Assembly: GCA_902798965.1 (NCBI GenBank) | Contig: CADBYS010000030.1 | Span: forward strand, 1 to 32,293 | DNA from: an uncultured Bacteroidales bacterium | GTDB taxonomy: Bacteria > Bacteroidota > Bacteroidia > Bacteroidales > Paludibacteraceae | Length of the DNA: 32,293 nt | Direction: 5' to 3' | Shown here: one piece after another, positions 5,957 to 27,688 of the stretch | How positions within the stretch are numbered: position 1 is the first letter of the stretch | How the letters are laid out: each line of letters starts with the position of its first letter | Translations under genes and position numbers: made by a program | The notes under the pieces: generated by a model | Told to the model about the DNA's origin: nothing | Database searches by the model: none | The model's input: only the letters and a program-made list of their open reading frames with translations

Positions 5957-5976
5957 AATCGTATCTTGTTTGTGCG

Positions 5977-5994
5977 GCAGCCAAAATTGGCTGC
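5977..5994. other. Hairpin of the CCAAT-TTGG type in a 5' leader
   Basis: GCAGCCAA-AA-TTGGCTGC is a perfect 8-bp inverted repeat in the leader of the DUF7935 gene. On the minus strand its core is CCAATTTTGG, one base from the CCAATCTTGG core repeated at 18801, 18871, 23485 and 27674. Confidence 0.6.
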
Positions 5995-6054
5995 GGGCAT
6001 TTTTTGTCGGGGCAGCATGGCGGCAAAAAATCACCGCTCACACCAATTCCGCCA

Positions 6055-18155: not shown

Positions 18156-19289
18156 ATGAAATATCTCATTTCCGGAGGCGGAACAGGAGGACATATCTTT
18201 CCCGCCGTAAGTATAGCTAACGCACTCAAGGCTGCCGACAAGCAGGCAGATATCCTGTTTGTCGGAGCGCTGGGACGCATGGAGATGGAGCGCGTGCCGC
18301 AAGCCGGCTACCGAATAGAAGGTCTGCCCGTTCGAGGCTTCAACCGTGCGCAGCCGTGGAAGAACATCTCTGTACTGTTCGACCTCTGGCGCTCCATGCG
18401 CATGGCCAAACGCATCGTCCGTGAGTTCAAGCCCGACGCAGCGGTGGGCGTAGGAGGCTATGCCAGCGGCGCGGCGATGAAAGTGGCGGCGCGTATGGGT
18501 ATTCCTGTTATCTTGCAAGAGCAAAACGGCTTTGCCGGTGTTACCAACAAACTGCTCAAGGATGATGCCCGACTCATCTGCGTGGCGTACGAAGGAATGG
18601 AGCGCTTCTTCCCCAAGGACAAGATACTGCTTACCGGCAATCCCGTAAGGCAGAACCTCACAACCGGCGACAGGAAGCACGCCTTGCAGTGGCTCAAGCA
18701 AGAGTACGATGCTACCTTCGCAGCCGACCGACCCACCGTGCTTATCATCGGCGGCAGCCTCGGTGCACGGACAATCAACCAAGCCATGCTCACGGCTCTG
18801 CCAATCTTGGCAGAGAAGAACATACAGGTCATCTGGCAAACAGGTAAGGTGTACTACGATAACATCTGCGCCAATCTTGGCGCAGAGAACCTCGCGGCGT
18901 ACAAGAAGCAAGGCATAGTAGTCACACCGTTCCTGAGCAACATGCCCGATGCCTATGCTCTGGCGGATATAGTCGTGTCACGCGCAGGCGCATCCTCGAT
19001 CAGCGAACTCTGCCTGCTCGGCAAAGCAAGCATACTCATCCCATCGCCCAACGTGGCGGAAGACCACCAGACGCACAACGCTATGGCGCTCGTGCGCAAA
19101 GATGCGGCCATACTCGTCAAGGACATTGAATGCTCCGACAAACTGCTGCCCGCTATCCTGGATTTGCTCAATGACAAGCAGCGGCAACAAGCAATGAAAA
19201 AGAACATTCTTTCGCTCGCTCAAACCGACTCAGCGGCACGTATAGCCGACGAAGTGATAAAAATTGCAAAGAATAATGCAAAAAAATAA
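18156..19289 (+). CDS. murG: UDP-GlcNAc:lipid I N-acetylglucosaminyltransferase
   Basis: A 377-residue GT28-family glycosyltransferase that adds GlcNAc to lipid I, making lipid II. Seen: GGGTGGHIFPA (7-17), VGVGGYASGAAM, LQEQNGFAGVTNKLL, the mid-protein GGSLGARTINQ, and the UDP-GlcNAc site SRAGASSISELCLL with PSPNVAEDHQTHNA. Two perfect hairpins with the core CCAATCTTGG lie in the coding sequence, giving LPILAE (about residue 215) and CANLGAE (about 239); both are near the interdomain linker and the reading frame is intact. It is the last gene of the dcw block: murC, ftsQ, ftsA and ftsZ do not follow. Confidence 0.96.
   Translation: MKYLISGGGTGGHIFPAVSIANALKAADKQADILFVGALGRMEMERVPQAGYRIEGLPVRGFNRAQPWKNISVLFDLWRSMRMAKRIVREFKPDAAVGVGGYASGAAMKVAARMGIPVILQEQNGFAGVTNKLLKDDARLICVAYEGMERFFPKDKILLTGNPVRQNLTTGDRKHALQWLKQEYDATFAADRPTVLIIGGSLGARTINQAMLTALPILAEKNIQVIWQTGKVYYDNICANLGAENLAAYKKQGIVVTPFLSNMPDAYALADIVVSRAGASSISELCLLGKASILIPSPNVAEDHQTHNAMALVRKDAAILVKDIECSDKLLPAILDLLNDKQRQQAMKKNILSLAQTDSAARIADEVIKIAKNNAKK
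18796..18815. other. CCAATCTTGG hairpin 1 (in murG)
   Basis: CTCTGCCA-ATCT-TGGCAGAG, an 8-bp perfect stem with an ATCT loop. Confidence 0.8.
18865..18886. other. CCAATCTTGG hairpin 2 (in murG)
   Basis: A 9-bp perfect stem TCTGCGCCA/TGGCGCAGA with an ATCT loop. The outer arm differs from hairpin 1 on both sides in step, so pairing is kept. Confidence 0.85.
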
Positions 19290-19296
19290 CAAAATA

Positions 19297-19328
19297 TTTG
19301 CATATTTCGATTTTTTTTCGTAACTTTG
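19297..19328 (+). promoter_or_regulatory. Promoter of the DUF6089-uppS-bamA operon
   Basis: TTTG (19297-19300), 20-nt spacer, TAACTTTG (19321-19328). It overlaps the murG downstream region. Transcription would start only about 6-10 bases before the ATG at 19341, so the mRNA is nearly leaderless. Confidence 0.85.
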
Positions 19329-19340
19329 TGGGCTCAATCT

Positions 19341-20039
19341 ATGCGCAATAGTAAAAACAAGATAGTATTATGCCTGATGTTGGCGTGCTTGTGCACGTTG
19401 CAAGCCTATGCCCAACGTCCTCAACGCAACCAATTGGAGATTGGCGTGCAGGGAGGCATGATGTACTATGTTGGCGATGCTAACCCGAAGATGTTCCAAC
19501 ATATCCGGGAGGCGTACGGCGCTGAGGTGAGCTACCTGTTCAACCGGCGCTGGTCGATTATGCTGCAAGGCACAGCCGGACGTATTGCCGGACGAACAGC
19601 CACCGAGCAGGGACTGCCCGATCCGAAAGGCGAGATGTGGACGAACTACCTGGTCAGCATCGATGCCGTGGCACGGTTCAACTTCCTGCCATACGGCATG
19701 GCGGACAAGTTCGACCACAAGATCAAGCCCTACACCCCGTATATCTATGCCGGTATAGGCGTGACCATGCATCAGCATTTCGGCGCAGCGGCAGCATACA
19801 TTCCTGTAGGTGTGGGATTTAAGTGGGCATGCACCGAACATCTGATGATGTATCTGGCGTGGCAGAACAACATTTGTTTTGCCGACAACCTGGAGCCCAC
19901 GCCCTACTACAATAACATCCACGAGCTGAACGGATCGAACATTCTGAACTGCGACATGGTATCGACCTTACAGTTTGGCATAGTTTTTGAATTTGTCAAA
20001 GAGAAAAGCATTTGCAAGTTCTGCAAAGAAAAAGAATAA
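19341..20039 (+). CDS. DUF6089-type outer-membrane beta-barrel protein
   Basis: A 232-residue secreted protein: signal peptide (CLMLACLCTLQAYAQ, cleavage near residue 25), then an opening ELGVQGG-like strand (LEIGVQGGMMYYVGDANP) and alternating strands through FNFLPYGMADKFDHKIKPYTPYIYAGIG. It looks like an eight-strand OmpA-like barrel of the Bacteroidota DUF6089 family, which often precedes uppS-bamA; the family name is moderately sure. The frame could also start at a TTG at 19326, but that lies inside the -7 box, so I use the ATG at 19341. The C-terminus is basic and has two cysteines (SICKFCKEKE), odd for a barrel end. Confidence 0.83.
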   Translation: MRNSKNKIVLCLMLACLCTLQAYAQRPQRNQLEIGVQGGMMYYVGDANPKMFQHIREAYGAEVSYLFNRRWSIMLQGTAGRIAGRTATEQGLPDPKGEMWTNYLVSIDAVARFNFLPYGMADKFDHKIKPYTPYIYAGIGVTMHQHFGAAAAYIPVGVGFKWACTEHLMMYLAWQNNICFADNLEPTPYYNNIHELNGSNILNCDMVSTLQFGIVFEFVKEKSICKFCKEKE

Positions 20040-20040
20040 T

Positions 20041-20107
20041 AGACCGCTAACGCTGAAAGTAATTAGGCTTTTGTCTTTTGTCTTTGAGCGAGCGAAGCAA
20101 GCGGTCT
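20041..20107. repeat. Repeat cluster in the DUF6089-uppS spacer
   Basis: AGACCGCT (20041-20048) and AGCGGTCT (20099-20106) are inverted ends. Between them are GTCTTTT heptamers (from 20072) and GAGCGAGCGAAGCAAGCGG. The left end, read on the minus strand, gives TCAGCGTTAGCGGTCT, a word also present in the murF array at 27357. Confidence 0.75.
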
Positions 20108-20126
20108 TTCGACTAAAATAAACCAT

Positions 20127-20870
20127 ATGAGCAAGAAAGACAATATAATCAAGGAGCGCATCCCGCGACATATTGCCATCATCATGGACGGCAACGGCCG
20201 CTGGGCGAAGAAGCAAGGCTTGGCACGCATGTTCGGGCACAAGCAAGGGGTAACCACGGTACATAACATCACCGAGGCTGCTGCCGAGATCGGCATTGAG
20301 TACCTGACACTCTACGCCTTCTCTACCGAGAACTGGAACCGCCCGAAGGAAGAGGTGGATGCCCTCATGGCATTGCTCGTGGATACGATTGCCAAAGAGA
20401 CTCCCACGCTCATGAAGAACAACGTGCGTCTGCTCACCATCGGCGATATCAACCGCTTACCCGAAGCCACGCGCCTCAAGTTCCTTGGTTGCATCGAGCA
20501 GACATCCGTGAATACGGGGCTGAACCTCGTGCTCGCACTCTCCTACTCTTCGCGCTGGGAGATCATCGAAGCCGCCAAGCGCATCGCCGCCGAGGTTAAC
20601 AGCGGCGCACTCACGCTCGACGAGATCAACGAGGCTGCTATCAGCAACCATCTGACTACAGCGGGTATACCCGATCCCGACTTGCTCATCCGCACCTCCG
20701 GCGAACTGCGCATATCGAACTTCTTGCTCTGGCAAATAGCATATTCCGAGCTGTACTTCACCGACAAACTATGGCCGGAGTTCACCGTCGAAGACCTATA
20801 CGAAGCCATCATCGACTACCAGCAACGCGAACGTCGATTTGGCAAAACATCTGAACAACTGAAGAATTGA
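20127..20870 (+). CDS. uppS: Isoprenyl transferase (undecaprenyl diphosphate synthase)
   Basis: A 247-residue cis-prenyltransferase. It extends farnesyl diphosphate with isopentenyl units to C55 undecaprenyl diphosphate, the lipid carrier for MraY and MurG. Seen: [17 protein letters not shown] (catalytic Asp about residue 22), the helix [46 protein letters not shown] and the C-terminal [22 protein letters not shown]. Length is normal. Its stop TGA overlaps the TTG start of bamA. Confidence 0.97.
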
Positions 20871-23476
20871 AACATCGCATACTGACATATATCATCCTCG
20901 CCCTACTCATCTGTCAGCCACTCCTGGCTGATGCACAGGATTCGATACCTGCCTCATCGGCTGCCACGCCGAAGATTGAGTATGGCATGACGCGTCCCAC
21001 CTACGAGATAGCGGGCATCAGCGTTTCCGGCGCACCCAGTTACGAAGATTTTGTACTTATCGGATTCTCCGGCCTTGCCGTCGGCGACAAGATTGAAGTG
21101 CCCGGCGACCAGATCACCAAGTGTATACGCCGATTCTGGAAGCAGGGACTGTTCTCCGACGTCAAGATCGTAGCCACGAAGATCGAGGGCGACAAGATAT
21201 GGCTCGAGATCCGCCTCAAGCAGCGCCCGCGAGTAAGCGAGATCGTTTACAACGGACTCAAGAAGAGCGAGAAAGAGGACGTAGAAGTCAAGGTAGGCAT
21301 CAGCAAGGGCGCACAGATGACGCCTAACCTCGCCGACCGCGCACAGACAGTGGTCAAGAAGTACCTGGCAGAGAAAGGCTTCCACAACTCCGAGGTCAAG
21401 GTGCTGCAGCAGCCCGACCGCGACCGCGAAGGATACGTCAAAGTCATGGTCAATGTCGACAAGAAGGTTAAAACGAAGGTCGGCAAGATCTACATCACCG
21501 GCAACCAGGCGCTGACACACACCCAGATCAACCAGGCGATGAAGAAGACCAACGACAACAATATCCTCAACCTCTTCCGTACCAAGAAGTTCGTTTCCGC
21601 GGAGTTCGAGAAGGATAAGCAAGCCGTGATCGAGAAGTACAACGAGATAGGTTACCGCGATGCCTACATCGTAGCAGACAGTATCGTGCCCAACCCCGAA
21701 GACCCCACACGCGTGGATGTGTACATGACCATCAGCGAGGGTAATCCGTACTACGTACGCTCTATCAGCTGGGTCGGCAACACCGTCTATCCCTACGACT
21801 ACCTCAACGCCGTGCTCGGCATCAAACCCGGCTCGACGTACAACCTTAAAGAGCTCAACAAACGTCTCACCGAAGATGATGATGCCGTCAGCAAACTCTA
21901 CACCGACCAGGGTTACTTGTTCTTCAACGTCGATCCGGTGGAGGTGAACGTCGATAACGACTCCATCGACTTCGAGATGCGTGTGTACGAAGGTCGCCCC
22001 GCTACCATCAACGAGATCAAGATCGTCGGCAACACCCGCGTCTATGAGCATGTCGTTCGCCGCGAGCTCTATACCAAGCCCGGACAACTCTATTCGCAAT
22101 CCGACATCATGCGTTCGCTGCGTGAGTTGGCACAGATGGGACACTTCGATCAGGAAAAGCTTGTGCCCGATATCCAGCCAAACCCCGAAGACGGAACAGT
22201 GGATATCACCTATCAGCTCGAGACTAAGTCGTCCGACCAGATCGAGTTCTCGCTCGGTTGGGGCGCTACGGGTATCGTAGGTTCTATCGGCTTGAAATTC
22301 ACCAACTTCGCCATCCAGAACCTGTTCAACCCCAAGTCCTACCGCATCGTGCCGCAAGGCGAGGGACAGACCTTCTCCATCAACGCGCGCACCAACGGTG
22401 TGTACTACACCTCAGCCAGCATCTCGTTCGTCGAGCCGTGGCTCGGCGGCAAGCGACCGAACTCGCTGTCCACATCCGTGTTCTTTGCTTCGCAGACCGG
22501 TTACTCCGACCGCTACTACCAGGCGTATCGTAACCTCTACAACTCCTACGCCTACAACTACGCGTACTACGGCAACTCCGATTACTACCAGCAACTCGCT
22601 GAGTCGGAGGCTGACCCCGACAAATACCTGCGCACCTTCGGCGTGAGCATCGGTTACGGCAAACGTCTGCGCTGGCCTGACGATTACTTCCAGTTCTACG
22701 GCGAACTGTCGTACCAAGCTTACTGGATGAAGGACTGGGCATACCTGCTCGTATCCAACGGCACGTGCCATAACCTGGCGCTCAACCTCCAACTCTCGCG
22801 CTCGAGTATCGACAATCCCATCTATACCCGCCGCGGTTCGCAGTTCAGCCTGGGCTTGAAGATCACTCCGCCGTGGTCGCTCATCAACGGACTCGACTAC
22901 TCCAACATGACCACCAACGAGCGCTACCATCTCATCGAGTACCACAAATGGACATTCAAGGGCAAGGTGTTCACGCCGCTCACCCACGACTCCAAACTTG
23001 TGCTCATGACCCGATTCGAGTTCGGTTATCTCGGTCACTACAACCAGTATGCCAAGTCGCCGTTCGAGACCTACTACATGGGCGGTGACGGTATGTCGTC
23101 GTACTCATCCTACGCTACGGATTATGTATCCATGCGTGGTTACTCATCCGGCTCACTCACGCCCTACGACTCCGAGACCGGACGAAACATGGGATACCTG
23201 TACAACAAGTTCACGCTCGAGTTGCGTTATCCTATCTCTCTGGAGCAGAATGCCACGATCTGGGCGCTCGGCTTCCTGGAGGCAGGTAACTGCTTCGCCA
23301 GCATCAAGGATTACAACCCCTTCGACCTCAAGCGCTCGGCAGGTGTGGGCGTACGCGTGTTCCTGCCTATGTTCGGCTTGTTAGGTATCGACTGGGGCTG
23401 GGGATTCGACAAGATCAACGGCAGCGACCAGTACGGCAAGAGCCAGTTCCACTTCGTCCTCGGCCAAGAATTATAA
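20867..23476 (+). CDS. bamA: Outer-membrane protein assembly factor BamA
   Basis: An 869-residue BamA/Omp85. It folds and inserts beta-barrel proteins in the outer membrane. Seen: signal peptide ([15 protein letters not shown]), five POTRA-like units across about residues 45-440 (for example [14 protein letters not shown] and [21 protein letters not shown]), then a 16-strand barrel with Tyr/Ser-rich loops (about 545-580) and the conserved [11 protein letters not shown] segment. The start is a TTG overlapping the uppS stop (TTGA); no ATG fits the signal peptide. The last residue is Leu, not the common Phe. An exact copy of a 22-base element also found after murF begins one base after the stop. 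Confidence 0.95.
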
Positions 23477-23477
23477 C

Positions 23478-23499
23478 GCATCGACCAATCTTGGGCGAT
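23478..23499. repeat. 22-base CCAATCTTGG element after bamA
   Basis: Identical to 27667-27688. It folds as ATCG-A-CCA / TGG-G-CGAT around an ATCT loop, with one A-G mismatch. It starts one base after the bamA stop. Confidence 0.85.
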
Positions 23500-23514
23500 A
23501 TAATAACAAAAAAA

Positions 23515-24033
23515 ATGAAAAAACTAATTGCATTAATAATCAGCGCATTCTGCATCTTCGGCATCGCTCAGGCGAAAGATGCTGCCGTCGCTTATGTCGA
23601 TATGGCATACATTTTGAAGAACTTACCGCAGTACGAGACGGCTAACGAGCAACTCTCCATGATGGCCAAGCGTTGGCAGAAGGAGATCGATGCCTTGGAG
23701 CAAGAGGTGCGCGTGATGACTACCAACTACCAGACCGAGCAGATCTTCCTCTCCGAAGAGATGCGCCAACGCCGCGAGGAGGAGATACTGGCGAAGGAAC
23801 AGGAAGCCATCGAGCTCAAGCGCAAGTACTTCGGCGAGACCGGCGAACTGGTCAAGAAACGCGAAGCACTCTTGAAGCCCATTCAGGACGAGATCTACGC
23901 GGCTATTCAGGATCTGGCTAACGAGAAGCACCTCGATGTAGTCAAAGACCGCTCTTCCGACCCGGGATTGCTCTTTATGTCATCCAAGCTCGACTACTCG
24001 GATCAGTTGCTCCAGAAGCTTGGCGGCAAGTAA
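23515..24033 (+). CDS. OmpH/Skp-like periplasmic chaperone (first copy)
   Basis: A 172-residue secreted protein: signal peptide (MKKLIALIISAFCIFGIAQA, cleavage near 20), an opening strand AAVAYVDMAYILKNLPQY, then a long charged helical arm (about 45-130, with EMRQRREEEILAKEQEAIELK) and a closing strand region ending KLGGK. This is the Skp/OmpH form: trimeric jellyfish-like chaperones that hold unfolded outer-membrane proteins for BamA. I start at the ATG at 23515; an in-frame ATG at 23491 would put eight non-signal residues in front. Order bamA-ompH-ompH is normal for Bacteroidota. Confidence 0.93.
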   Translation: MKKLIALIISAFCIFGIAQAKDAAVAYVDMAYILKNLPQYETANEQLSMMAKRWQKEIDALEQEVRVMTTNYQTEQIFLSEEMRQRREEEILAKEQEAIELKRKYFGETGELVKKREALLKPIQDEIYAAIQDLANEKHLDVVKDRSSDPGLLFMSSKLDYSDQLLQKLGGK

Positions 24034-24047
24034 CCCCTCGTAACCCT

Positions 24048-24081
24048 CGAAATATCGAAATATCGATTTATCGAAATATCG
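24048..24081 (+). repeat. Octamer array between the two OmpH genes
   Basis: CGAAATAT, CGAAATAT, CGATTTAT, CGAAATAT then CG, with an exact 8-nt period. Confidence 0.9.
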
Positions 24082-24102
24082 CAAATAATTAAATCAAAGA
24101 AT

Positions 24103-24597
24103 ATGAAAAAGATTGTAATGATTATGGCGGTTCTCGCTCTGACGCTGACCGCTAATGCACAGAAGTTCGGCTATGTTAACACCCAGGAGTTGTTCATGCT
24201 CATGCCCGAACTCAAAGATGTTCAGGCACGTATGGACAGCCTCAACAAGCAATACGAGAATCTGCTCATGAACATGCAAGAGGAGTACCAGAAGAAACTT
24301 CAGGACTACCAGCAGAAGCAGCAGACTCTGCCCGAGGCAATGCGTCAGATTCAGGAGGAGGAGCTTTACTCCATGCAGCAGCGTCTGCAAACGACCTATC
24401 AGACGGCACAGCAAGATGTAGAGCAGAAGCGCACCGAGTTCCTCAAGCCCGTCAACGAACGAATGGCGAAAGCTATCCAGGAGGTAGGCGCTGCCAACAA
24501 CTACACCTATATCTTCGACTCGGCAGCTGCCGTATATATTGCTCCGGATGCCGATAACGTTATGCCGCTCGTCAAAACCAAACTCGGTATTAAGTAA
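24103..24597 (+). CDS. OmpH/Skp-like periplasmic chaperone (second copy)
   Basis: A 164-residue paralogue of the preceding protein: signal peptide (MAVLALTLTANAQ, cleavage near 20), FGYVNTQELFMLMPELKD, a Gln-rich coiled arm (about 45-120) and the terminal strand YIFDSAAAVYIAPDADNV. It should act with the first copy in carrying outer-membrane proteins to BamA; a paired arrangement is usual in the phylum. Its stop TAA overlaps the ATG of a 38-codon ORF. Confidence 0.93.
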   Translation: MKKIVMIMAVLALTLTANAQKFGYVNTQELFMLMPELKDVQARMDSLNKQYENLLMNMQEEYQKKLQDYQQKQQTLPEAMRQIQEEELYSMQQRLQTTYQTAQQDVEQKRTEFLKPVNERMAKAIQEVGAANNYTYIFDSAAAVYIAPDADNVMPLVKTKLGIK

Positions 24598-24713
24598 TGG
24601 CTGACGGTTATCTCGAATCCCACTACGCCGAGTATGAAAAACGCAAGGCAGAATGGCTTAAGAAAAAACATACAACACCTCATCCCCGCCGCCCCGAGGA
24701 TGAGGCGTTGTGA
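24597..24713 (+). CDS. 38-residue basic small protein
   Basis: An ATG that shares its A with the ompH stop (TAATG) opens 38 codons: MADGYLESHYAEYEKRK and so on, ending RRPEDEAL. It is highly charged, with no membrane segment. The MADxYLExxxxxYE opening resembles small Bacteroidota proteins often (wrongly) labelled dehydrogenase; that likeness is from memory. The TAATG overlap and codon use like its neighbours support translation. Function unknown. Confidence 0.6.
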   Translation: MADGYLESHYAEYEKRKAEWLKKKHTTPHPRRPEDEAL

Positions 24714-24722
24714 TTTCAATTA

Positions 24723-24748
24723 GAAATTATAAATTTGAAATTATAAAT
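24723..24748 (+). repeat. 12-base direct repeat before the MFS gene
   Basis: GAAATTATAAAT at 24723 and 24737, a 14-nt period, ending seven bases before the ATG. Confidence 0.8.
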
Positions 24749-24754
24749 CATTTT

Positions 24755-26122
24755 ATGGAACAGATTCAAAACTTACTTCGCGATAAAGCATGGGCACGTT
24801 GGACGGTGCTCGTGCTTGTTGCATCTATGATGTTCTTCGCGTACATGTTCGTCGATATACTCTCGCCCTTGGCATCGCTGCTCAACGACTCGCTCGGGTG
24901 GGATCAGGGTGTGTTTGGCACCTACGCCGCCGGTGAGTACCTGCTCAACGTCTTCGGCTTCCTTATCCTCGCCGGCATCATCCTCGATAAGATGGGTGTG
25001 CGCTTCACGGGCTTGCTCTCAGCTTCGCTCATGGTTATCGGCGCGGCTATCAAGTTCTGGGGCATATCCTGGGCGGATGCCAACAGCGTGGCTTGGCTCA
25101 ACAGCTGGTGGACGACCATGCCCGGTTCGGCTAAGCTGGCTATGTTCGGCTTCATGATCTTCGGCTGCGGTTGCGAGATGGCGGGTACTACCGTCAGCAA
25201 GATCCTCGCCAAGTGGTTCAAGGGCAAGGAGATGGCATTGGCTATGGGCTTGGAGATGGCTATTGCACGTCTGGGCGTGTTTGCCGCCATGTGGCTCTCA
25301 CCGATGTTCAGCATCAAGTTCGCTGTTGACGGCACGAACTCCGTAGTAGCACCGCTGCTCTTCGCTTCATGCCTGCTCGTGATCGGTCTGCTCAACTTCT
25401 TTGTGTTCACCATCATGGACAACAAGTTCGACAAGCAGCTCGTAGCTATCGGCGAAGCACCTGCCGTACATGATCCCGAGGATGAGTTCAAGGTCAGCGA
25501 CCTGGCGCAGATCTTCAAGTCGAAGATGTTCTGGATCGTGGCGCTGCTGTGCGTACTCTACTACTCGGCTATCTTCCCCTTCCAGCGTTTTGCAACGAAC
25601 TTCCTGGAGGAGACCCTGAGCATCAGCAATGCCGAAGCTGCCGGTCTGTTCAAGTGGTTCCCGATACTGGCTATGGTTCTCACGCCGTTCCTCGGTGCGT
25701 TCATCGACTACAAGGGCAAAGGCGCCTCGATGATGCTGCTCGGTGCAGTCATCATGATCGCCTGCCACAGCGTGTTCGCCTTCGTGCTGCCCGCTTTCCC
25801 GAGCAAGACTCTCGCACTCTGCACGATCCTCGTGCTCGGTGTCAGCTTCTCGCTCGTGCCGGCATCCATGTGGCCGTCCGTGCCTAAGATCATCGACGAG
25901 AAGGTGCTCGGCTCGGCCTACTGCCTCATCTTCTGGGTGCAGAACATAGGTCTCTGCCTCGTGCCGCTGCTGATTGGCAAGCTCCGCGTGGCTACCGACG
26001 GCTACCTTGTTCCGATGATCGTCTTTGCCTCCTTCGGCGTACTCGCCTTCTTCCTCAGCCTCGCACTCAAGGTCGAGGACAAGAAGAAAGGCTACGGCCT
26101 CGAACTGCCCAATAAAAAGTAA
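24755..26122 (+). CDS. Major facilitator superfamily transporter (MFSD1-like)
   Basis: A 455-residue inner-membrane transporter with about twelve spans and a central loop (about residues 230-255, charged). Spans begin at about residue 12 (WTVLVLVASMMFFAYMFVDI). Features of the MFSD1-like subgroup are seen: DILSPLASLLNDSLGW, then GEYLLNVFGFLILAGIILDKMGVRF as loop 2-3, and SKILAKWFKGKEMALAMGLE. The human MFSD1 family moves dipeptides; the bacterial substrate is not known and peptide or nutrient export or import are all open. The frame extends to an ATG at 24710, but those 15 residues come from AT-rich repeat DNA, so I start at 24755. Confidence 0.9.
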   Translation: MEQIQNLLRDKAWARWTVLVLVASMMFFAYMFVDILSPLASLLNDSLGWDQGVFGTYAAGEYLLNVFGFLILAGIILDKMGVRFTGLLSASLMVIGAAIKFWGISWADANSVAWLNSWWTTMPGSAKLAMFGFMIFGCGCEMAGTTVSKILAKWFKGKEMALAMGLEMAIARLGVFAAMWLSPMFSIKFAVDGTNSVVAPLLFASCLLVIGLLNFFVFTIMDNKFDKQLVAIGEAPAVHDPEDEFKVSDLAQIFKSKMFWIVALLCVLYYSAIFPFQRFATNFLEETLSISNAEAAGLFKWFPILAMVLTPFLGAFIDYKGKGASMMLLGAVIMIACHSVFAFVLPAFPSKTLALCTILVLGVSFSLVPASMWPSVPKIIDEKVLGSAYCLIFWVQNIGLCLVPLLIGKLRVATDGYLVPMIVFASFGVLAFFLSLALKVEDKKKGYGLELPNKK

Positions 26123-26136
26123 CACACCTCAAATAA

Positions 26137-26154
26137 ACAATATACATATATTGT
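26137..26154. other. AT-rich palindrome after the MFS gene
   Basis: ACAATATA-CA-TATATTGT, 8 perfect pairs, followed by GTATAC. No T-run follows, so it is not a standard terminator. It could be a protein-binding site. Confidence 0.45.
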
Positions 26155-26165
26155 ATACTACGGAA

Positions 26166-26321
26166 TTTATTTAGGTTTATTGCTTTTGAGTGTTTTACTC
26201 GGAGAGTTGTGATAATGGATGGTAAGAACTATCCGAAAGTTCACTTTCGAGGAGTTTTTAGCAGCCATTAGCACAAGTCGCAAAGCGACAAAACACTCAA
26301 AAGGGTTTATTTAGGTTTATT
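26166..26321. other. Structured 121-nt element with flanking 16-bp direct repeats, before murF
   Basis: Direct repeats TTTATTTAGGTTTATT (26166-26181 and 26306-26321) flank a perfect 14-bp inverted repeat CTTTTGAGTGTTTT/AAAACACTCAAAAG (26183-26196, 26290-26303). Inside are an 11-pair helix with one A-G mismatch (26207-26218 with 26265-26276), two hairpins within it (26219-26232, and 26234-26249 with stem CGAAAGT/ACTTTCG), and a GTCGC-AAA-GCGAC hairpin (26277-26289) that abuts both helices. It occupies the murF leader. Candidates are a cis-regulatory RNA or a small non-autonomous mobile element; no match to a named class is recognised. Confidence 0.6.
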
Positions 26322-26338
26322 TTCTATTTTACACCGAT

Positions 26339-27664
26339 ATGGATTGGAGTTTTTTGATTGAGGGCAAGGATGCCATTTGCGTCAGCACCGACAGCCGCAA
26401 CCTCCCCGAGGGCTGCATCTTCGTAGCCCTGCGCGGCGAGACCTTCGATGGCAACACCTTCGCGCTGAAAGCCCTGGAGCAAGGCGCCTCGCTGGCTATC
26501 GTGGACGACGAGAATGTCTATAACGCCATTCAGCAGACAGGCGAGTACTCCGCGTTGCTTGTGGAGAACAGCCTCAGCGCCTTACAGGATCTCGCCCGCG
26601 AGTGGCGTCGTCAATGGGGCAAACGCATCATAGGCATCACGGGCACCAACGGCAAAACAACCACCAAGGAGCTGCTTGCTGCAGTCCTGAACACCAAGTA
26701 CAAGACCCTTTTCACCCAAGGCAACCTCAACAACTCCATCGGTGTGCCCCTCACGCTCTTGCAGCTCACTGCCGAGCACGAACTGGCTATCGTGGAGATG
26801 GGTGCCAGCCATCCGGGCGACATCAAGGAGCTCGTCGAGGTCGCTGAGCCGAACTGCGGACTCATCACCAACGTCGGCAAAGCCCACCTGCAAGGCTTCG
26901 GTTCGTTCGAGGGTGTCATGGCCACCAAAGCCGAGCTCTACGACTATCTGCTTGCCCACAACGGTCTTATCTTCCGCAACGCCGACAATCCCCACCTTGA
27001 GCAAATGTATCTGTCAGCGCAGCGGTCTCACTTCCCACAGCGTAGCGGTCTCACTTCTCACAGCGAAGCGGTCTTATACACCACAGGCACAATGCCCGAA
27101 GGCACGCAGCTTGTAGGCGCATACAACAGCGAGAACATCCAAGCCGCACTCTGCGTAGGCGAGTACTTCGGTATCAGCCGCGAAGACGGCTTGGCTGCCA
27201 TCCGCGCCTACGTGCCCTCCAACAACCGCTCACAGCGAATGCAAACCGAGCACAACACCCTCATCGTCGATGCCTACAACGCCAACCCCACCTCCATGCA
27301 GGCTGCCATTCAGGCTTTCGACTTTGAGCAACGCAGTCTGTCAGCGCAGCGGTCTGTCAGCGTTAGCGGTCTGTCAGCGCAGCGGTCTGTCAGCGCAGCG
27401 GTCTATATCTTGGGCGCTATGCGCGAACTCGGCGACTACTCGCACACCGAGCACCAGAACATAGTGAACATGCTCCTGGAGCGCAAAGCCGACACCGTGC
27501 TGCTCGTAGGCGATGAGTACCGCGAGACCACAGCCCCCTATCCTATCTTCTCGAACGTGGATGAGCTGTGCGAACAACTGAAGGCTCACCCCATAACCGG
27601 CTGCACCATCCTCATCAAAGGCTCGCGTAGCAACAAACTCGAAAAAGTATTACCGCTACTCTAA
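26339..27664 (+). CDS. murF: UDP-MurNAc-tripeptide:D-Ala-D-Ala ligase, repeat-bearing
   Basis: A 441-residue MurF, which adds D-Ala-D-Ala to the UDP-MurNAc-tripeptide with ATP, the last cytoplasmic step before MraY. Seen: STDSRNLPEGCIFVALRGETFDG, the ATP loop GITGTNGKTT (99-108), QGNLNNSIGVPLTLL, EMGASHPGDI, TNVGKAHLQGFGS, and the C-terminal-domain PSNNRSQ, DAYNANPTS and GAMRELG. Two repeat-encoded stretches interrupt it: residues about 225-244 (LSAQRSHFPQRSG onward) and about 333-355 (SLSAQRSVSVSGLSAQRSV). The central-domain segment between NADN and GAYN is about 50 residues, half of it repeat-derived, and from memory shorter than in other MurF proteins. All catalytic motifs remain and the frame is open. 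It lies outside the dcw block. Confidence 0.94.
   Translation: MDWSFLIEGKDAICVSTDSRNLPEGCIFVALRGETFDGNTFALKALEQGASLAIVDDENVYNAIQQTGEYSALLVENSLSALQDLAREWRRQWGKRIIGITGTNGKTTTKELLAAVLNTKYKTLFTQGNLNNSIGVPLTLLQLTAEHELAIVEMGASHPGDIKELVEVAEPNCGLITNVGKAHLQGFGSFEGVMATKAELYDYLLAHNGLIFRNADNPHLEQMYLSAQRSHFPQRSGLTSHSEAVLYTTGTMPEGTQLVGAYNSENIQAALCVGEYFGISREDGLAAIRAYVPSNNRSQRMQTEHNTLIVDAYNANPTSMQAAIQAFDFEQRSLSAQRSVSVSGLSAQRSVSAAVYILGAMRELGDYSHTEHQNIVNMLLERKADTVLLVGDEYRETTAPYPIFSNVDELCEQLKAHPITGCTILIKGSRSNKLEKVLPLL
27011..27070. repeat. AGCG-AGCGGTCT array 1 in murF
   Basis: CTGTCAGCGCAGCG (27011-27024) is followed by two 23-nt units (27025-27047, 27048-27070), each ending in AGCGtAGCG or AGCGaAGCG before GTCT. 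Confidence 0.9.
27336..27400. repeat. AGCG-AGCGGTCT array 2 in murF
   Basis: Units GTCTGTCAGCGCAGCG at 27336, 27369 and 27385 (16 nt) and one 17-nt variant at 27352 with GTTAGCG. The total is 65 nt. Confidence 0.95.
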
Positions 27665-27666
27665 TA

Positions 27667-27688
27667 GCATCGACCAATCTTGGGCGAT
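27667..27688. repeat. 22-base CCAATCTTGG element after murF
   Basis: Exact copy of 23478-23499, starting two bases after the murF stop. Confidence 0.85.

Follow-up and report, generated by a model that had tools for sequence, protein, structure and literature searches.

REP-like hairpins and a hairpin-bearing RAYT-like gene in an uncultured Bacteroidales bacterium

Results

The window analysed here is a 32,293-nucleotide (nt) stretch from an uncultured Bacteroidales bacterium of the Paludibacteraceae (contig CADBYS010000030.1 of assembly GCA_902798965.1, positions 1 to 32,293). It carries murG, bamA and murF and, within or just behind these genes, four copies of a short hairpin built on the 10-base palindrome CCAATCTTGG, which is very probably a repetitive extragenic palindrome (REP)-like element served by a REP-associated tyrosine transposase (RAYT)-like protein encoded elsewhere in the genome (Table 1). 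All four copies are exact, on the plus strand and where the original prediction, made from the window alone, had placed them; shuffled windows give an expectation of 0.07, and none of 100 shuffles reached four. The arms differ between copies while remaining paired, again as predicted, except for an A·G mismatch at the fifth pair of the two intergenic copies, because of which these fold more weakly (z of −1.5 and −1.8) than the two within murG (−4.3 and −5.9). The near relative proposed in a leader at 5977-5994 was also recovered, at 5974-5997 on the minus strand (E 9e-5 in the window), upstream of an ATG within the frame of a DUF7935 protein. Rfam yielded no match in the window at the gathering score.

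Table 1 Hairpins of the window, their host genes and RAYT-like genes of the same genome
Feature	Position	Strand	Comment
CCAATCTTGG 10-mer	18801, 18871, 23485, 27674	+	exact match in window
Hairpin CTCTG-CCAATCTTGG-CAGAG	18796..18815	+	within murG, in frame (LPILAE)
Hairpin CTGCG-CCAATCTTGG-CGCAG	18866..18885	+	within murG, in frame
REP-like hairpin ATCGA-CCAATCTTGG-GCGAT	23480..23499	+	3 nt past bamA stop; A·G mismatch at fifth pair
Foot GC of bamA-side hairpin	23478-23479
Identical second copy of bamA-side hairpin	27669..27688	+	4 nt past murF stop
Foot GC of murF-side hairpin	27667-27668
Weaker relative CGCAG-CCAATTTTGG-CTGCC	5976..5995	-	apparent leader of DUF7935 gene
murG (glycosyltransferase 28)	18156..19289	+	host of two in-frame hairpins
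bamA (POTRA and Omp85 domains)	20867..23476	+
murF (Mur ligase)	26339..27664	+
RAYT-like (TnpA_REP) gene	C27:28684-30006		DHFH and YVQDNP motifs
Further RAYT-like gene	L133:4826-6130	-	30-33% identical to C27 protein; strong hairpin not close by
Further RAYT-like gene	L134:8632-9693	+	30-33% identical to C27 protein; strong hairpin not close by

The original prediction suggested searching the genome for the core with paired arms, building a covariance model and counting distances from stop codons, and allowed that the family would be a coincidence if the core occurred at chance frequency or its arms were unpaired outside the window. Neither is the case. The genome holding the window (G000; 2.85 Mb in 51 contigs) contains CCAATCTTGG 39 times and the reversed pattern twice; the 21-mer shared by the bamA and murF copies has 12 matches there with at most 3 mismatches, and its control has none. 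Counting G-T pairs, flanking positions 1 to 5 are paired in 33, 36, 37, 32 and 37 of the 38 genomic copies scored (of 39), and position 6 in 8; since pairing ends there, the element is a bounded 20-nt hairpin of five variable and three fixed pairs. Changes on both sides of a pair filled 41 cells in 35 copies compared with 8.2 in shuffles, the rows having been selected by their core, so that the three inner pairs are uninformative. The covariance model returned 116 rows with E no higher than 10; as both strands of one place were often listed, these reduce to 75 distinct places, 60 of them at E ≤ 0.01.

We examined 61 of the 75 places, among them all but 2 of the 60 strongest. Many carry other loops (AGCT, AGTT, TGCT and more), ATCT being merely the commonest, so the core is not invariant as had been claimed: the genome-wide constant is a CCA....TGG stem with a variable loop. 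At 9 orthologous sites shared with relatives (12 comparisons, 5 of them from loci found via the hairpin, some sites counted twice and a half hairpin in G067 left out), 7 of 192 stem cells differ compared with 17 of 48 loop cells; the 7 comparisons chosen independently of the hairpin give 6 of 112 and 13 of 28.

According to a simple and crude open-reading-frame caller, 37 of the 61 places are intergenic and 24 lie inside open frames. Among the intergenic copies, 25 sit between two genes running in the hairpin's direction, 3 between genes in the opposite direction, 7 between converging genes and 2 in other settings. The distance count places 16 of 32 measured copies 1-7 nt past a stop codon; on the other side, the gap to a start codon is 7-19 nt for 17 of 26. 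In 36 aligned intergenic copies the foot has G at −2 (26/36) and C or T at −1 (33/36), followed mostly by AT, and the sequence past the stem is A-rich. The hairpins of a second set, drawn from relatives, lie similarly close to stop codons. In relatives, copies also form tandem arrays of 2-7, mostly spaced 28-41 nt apart.

Orthologous junctions vary in whether they hold a hairpin. The bamA-skp stop-to-start spacing is 38 nt in G000 and 6 nt, without a hairpin, in G160 and G067, with other spacers in G007 (80 nt) and G094 (44 nt); murF and the next gene are 39 nt apart in G000, overlap at stop and start without a hairpin in G067 and G094, and are separated by 45 nt of other sequence in G007. Of 20 relative regions, bamA was found in 4 and murF in 4, one of the latter (G090, 37% identity) without the gene that follows it, so the evidence for empty counterparts of the window's junctions comes from G160, G067 and G094. 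Four further junctions were compared in six relatives. The hairpin at C1:192967 is common to G195 and G001, absent in G160 (a one-base stop/start overlap) and replaced in G007, two genomes giving no match; that at RnfD|RnfG is common to G094 and G160 and absent in G067 and G007 (no match in G195); that at YidC|MBL is common to G094, with the left half alone left in G067; and at RnfB|RnfC hairpins with changed arms stand in G001 and G067, the other four not being comparable there. G001 additionally holds at least two hairpins at places bare in G000. Since some relatives lack the hairpin at the bamA, murF and other junctions, the comparison indicates that whole units of roughly 30-45 nt have been gained or lost.

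Other repeats occupy some of the same junctions. YidC|MBL in G001, G195, G160 and G007 (L353, L355, L351 and L350) carries other short tandem repeats, GATTGAC-like and GTTGAGTGTTTAGAG-like. A second palindrome type with GTAG...CTAC arms, 18 nt at bamA-skp in G007 (L259) and 15 nt at RnfD|RnfG in G001 (L361), replaces the G000 hairpin at these two sites; its GTAG arms equal the canonical REP foot.

Within murG, the two in-frame hairpins appear to differ in origin. Sixteen of 20 relatives have a stretch 1-4 codons shorter at the second hairpin, and in the remaining four (G001, G160, G067 and G195) its length is the same; of these, G160 and G067 retain a complete hairpin whose arms or loop differ. 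At the first hairpin, the length matches that of all 20. This unchanged length, along with an LPILAE context that favours the palindrome, would suit coincidence for single copies and above all for the first murG hairpin. We consider that very unlikely: among 20,000 synonymous recodings of murG none contained two such hairpins and 224 contained one, and in local recoding the first hairpin arose in 11 of 20,000. Because no recoding produced two, both hairpins together are not expected from codon use.

Reading through hairpin-rich regions uncovered a gene on contig C27 with the same hairpins on both flanks. Its protein matches the NCBIfam REP-associated tyrosine transposase model (NF047646) at 5.8e-9, below the model cut-off; 45 of 45 aligned relatives match the model at E ≤ 0.1. 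In the alignment (A3; 45 of 69 open frames), the H, H, Y, N and P of an HUH motif and a single Tyr followed by xxNP are invariant in all 45 rows, and a Y1 fold was also recognised in the protein. The partner open frames span 331-446 residues, most about 360-400, and combine an N-terminal HUH/Y1 domain with a predicted C-terminal DprA-like fold (from a computed fold match); we take the motifs of this C-terminal half to resemble those of DprA. The same architecture, an apparent fusion of a Y1 transposase with a single-stranded-DNA-recombination fold, is seen in L267:4001-5140 and relatives among L265-L344. A literature search, with most subscription literature outside its reach, found no published RAYT-DprA fusion and no description of this hairpin family; a sequence-profile search of solved structures returned no matches, nor did PADLOC for two proteins. 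Pfam Y1_Tnp proved unsuitable for finding the partner, having missed the C27 gene and given counts that, by eye, did not visibly track the hairpins in the compared genomes.

Besides the flanking hairpins, the C27 gene contains two in-frame ones, held at fixed positions in most of the relatives compared. Across 30 loci (22 close ones, our own included, and 8 at 41-49% identity), the best hairpin sits at precisely +106 nt relative to the D of the HUH motif (DHxH) in 28 and precisely 106 nt upstream of that D in 22, with a constant frame in both cases, and GTAT is the commonest foot of these copies too (17/28 and 13/23). The later one has ATCCG/CGGAT-like arms in one group and ATCAG/CTGAT-like arms in the other, a paired change that alters the protein. 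In a wider set of 80 loci, reduced to 76 after 4 without the motif pair were dropped, pairing exceeded that of synonymous recodings (p < 0.05) for the later hairpin in 40 of 76 loci and for the earlier in 13 of 75. Core type, CCA/TGG or CCG/CGG, is the same in the gene and on its flanks in all 19 loci that have both (17 and 2, respectively), and neither type appears in the farther windows of any of the 76 loci (windows whole in 50, partial in 26). Under a strict test, 36 of the 76 have neither in-gene nor flanking hairpins and 21 have one of the two.

Several neighbouring observations concern the same gene family. Thirteen more distant RAYT relatives (L284, L290, L295, L300, L307, L317, L318, L319, L322, L328, L338, L341 and L342) have an in-gene hairpin of another sequence, mostly CCG....CGG, at a similar position (+122 to +128 nt relative to the HUH motif). 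Another RAYT-like gene of G000, at C2:124926-125906 (L345), was matched in two pieces and no HUH motif was found in it; other hairpins may have come from it before it decayed. Just after the C27 gene, C27:30004-30095 (L112) holds direct repeats of the ACGACACGTAAACG and ATGCTGAGGAA type.

We surveyed 178 genomes of the genus, scoring up to 44 hairpin candidates in each, so that per-genome counts near 40 are lower bounds. Hairpins occur at E ≤ 1e-3 in 92 and a RAYT relative at E ≤ 1e-20 in 108. Each of the 23 genomes with a close orthologue of the C27 gene (our own included, and G001 represented by a fragment) has 2 or more hairpins, with a median of 15, compared with a median of 0 in the other 155, of which 86 have none (p about 1e-11). 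The 80 named relative records are uncultured-bacterium assemblies, many titled as from rumen or other ruminant gut, and assigned to Paludibacteraceae, Prevotellaceae, Bacteroidales and similar groups.

Discussion

Genome-wide copies, hairpin-free junctions in relatives, tandem arrays and a RAYT-like gene both flanked by and carrying the hairpins lead us to regard these hairpins, with considerable confidence, as REP-like elements that are apparently mobile, with the C27 HUH-Y1 protein of the RAYT/TnpA_REP type as their likely agent. This favours the REP-like mobile hairpin that the original prediction had offered as one of two options. By analogy with known REP/RAYT biochemistry, the RAYT protein would recognise the folded hairpin in single-stranded DNA through its foot and stem, and would cut and rejoin it so that units spread or duplicate. 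Such units would persist best where they are least harmful or even useful, at operon junctions just past stop codons and in the sense direction, and a hairpin in the junction mRNA may there hold up a ribosome at termination or shield the message upstream of it, as has been reported for Escherichia coli REPs. Both mobility through the C27 enzyme and any effect on mRNA are what we infer.

A number of observations weigh against this interpretation. No movement of a hairpin was observed. The foot here is G[C/T]AT where REPs have a 5' GTAG/GTGG (canonical GT[AG]G), which is why we write 'REP-like'. Two members of the protein family score 36 and 39 bits with REP_Tyr_transpos, for which the curated cut-off is 80, and the Pfam Y1_Tnp match is weak. 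The two other paralogues in the same genome have no strong hairpin nearby, the C16 gene having a weak one 0.8 kb off and the C1 gene none within 6.9 kb. The link between RAYT and hairpin abundance is inflated by hairpins within the RAYT locus and by genome relatedness, and 16 of 70 genomes without a RAYT hit (E ≤ 1e-20) nonetheless have hairpins, up to 18 in G021. Among the G000 copies, those the crude caller placed inside open frames are left without individual explanation, and the orientation bias of 25 versus 3 weakens to 22 versus 15 in the second set, to which we give little weight as it counts tandem and overlapping loci more than once. Lastly, some junctions without this hairpin are not bare: the 80-nt bamA-skp spacer of G007 holds a different palindrome, of 7 bp, built from GTAG arms around a CCA....TGG core, and RnfD|RnfG in G001 has been replaced by sequence with a different palindrome.

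The hairpins might instead be cis-acting RNA elements under host selection, in which a stem near a stop or start codon tunes termination, re-initiation or mRNA decay and mobility is a matter of history. The sense orientation, the close spacing to stop codons and the far better preservation of stems than loops at shared sites all suit this account. So does a 2025 paper (PMC12306157, citing Liang et al. 2015) according to which ribosomes stall at E. coli REPs lying no more than 15 nt from a stop codon, a role that the stop-codon nearness seen here would fit. Yet sites are gained, lost and replaced among close species, the neighbouring genes share no common theme, and gene conversion or recognition by a transposase could equally preserve the stems; we therefore consider host selection of this kind possible but doubtful as the main explanation.

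Two narrower roles fare much worse. The original prediction's other option, a binding site through which an RNA-binding protein would coordinate envelope mRNAs, drew on the window's copies in or after murG, bamA and murF. Twenty neighbour proteins chosen from 23 listed junctions are mixed (DnaB, tRNA synthetases, glycine cleavage P-protein, glutamate dehydrogenase, Rnf subunits, biotin ligase, YidC and others, one without a Pfam match), so envelope co-regulation is not supported; with arrays of up to seven copies in relatives and bare bamA and murF junctions in some of them, sites coming and going between species, we rejected an envelope regulon as exceedingly improbable. Intrinsic transcription terminators would account for stable stems downstream of stop codons, and a similar stem, GGAGCG...CGCTCC at C14:20268 (L025), ends in T-rich sequence, resembles a genuine terminator and illustrates how such stems can mimic the family. 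But neither intergenic window copy is terminator-like or followed by a T run, which speaks against that role at both; the A-rich sequence after the stem and the position of 25 of 37 intergenic copies between co-directional genes leave termination scarcely credible for the family.

Within the preferred reading, of REP-like elements with a RAYT-type agent, a bolder extension is speculative and, in our judgement, rather unlikely to hold in full. The in-frame hairpins would be a built-in recognition tag that the RAYT-DprA protein binds in its own gene or mRNA to control itself; the in-gene pair would be a master copy renewing the REPs; and the DprA-like half would hand the cut strand to recombination, with RecA-dependent strand exchange or gene conversion replacing classical transposition. 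The field has yet to settle how REPs spread and what makes some transposases retain REPs in their own genes. This Bacteroidales family, represented by many rumen assemblies, provides numerous related genomes in which enzyme and hairpin types come as pairs, a hairpin that keeps two fixed in-frame positions despite sequence change, and a DprA-like domain that suggests a tie to single-strand recombination. It also cautions against assuming that hairpins behind envelope genes here are regulatory.

Comparison with known systems

REPs and TnpA_REP form a known system (PMC6006769, PMC3733652 and PMC8266576), and cleavage of single-stranded REP, with a role for the foot, has been demonstrated in other species. 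As in REPtrons (REP plus TnpA_REP/RAYT), we find a short palindrome in many copies mainly outside genes, placed at gene junctions with a tetranucleotide-like foot; an HUH-Y1 gene, in G000 and relatives, that the hairpins flank and lie within; variation in presence at orthologous sites; and a patchy distribution. Different from REPtrons are the foot, G[C/T]AT and partly in the stem, the CCA....TGG core, the number of distinct places in G000 (60 at E ≤ 0.01) and the partner frames of 331-446 residues with their DprA-like C-terminal half. The protein has the HUH motif and Tyr-xxNP expected of a RAYT, with a score short of the curated value. Compared with IS200/IS605 (TnpA_IS200; IS608, ISDra2), the arrangement differs in that the hairpins here occur on their own across the genome (no search was aimed at insertion-sequence ends or tnpB), and from DNA processing protein A (DprA) the present protein differs in having the Rossmann-type part only, fused to a transposase domain.

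A group described by Quentin et al. 2018 (PMC6006769) shares several of these features. TnpA_Y1 subclass 2.4 also occurs in Bacteroidetes and has in-frame REPs between HuH and Y, corresponding to the +106-nt hairpin seen here in 28 of 30 loci. Compared by HuH and Y motifs alone, subclass 2.4, whose described motifs also include WQ, has NH[IFV]H and YIxNNP where our family has DH[FIL]H and Y[VI]xDNP; its listed length is 194, against about 360-400 residues for most frames here, and our loci have an extra hairpin ahead of HuH, for the most part at a constant spacing. The words 'DprA' and 'Rossmann' are absent from the main text of that paper. What sets the system described in this study apart from known REP/RAYT systems is its foot, the additional in-gene hairpin at a fixed position, the DH[FIL]H motif and the DprA-like half.

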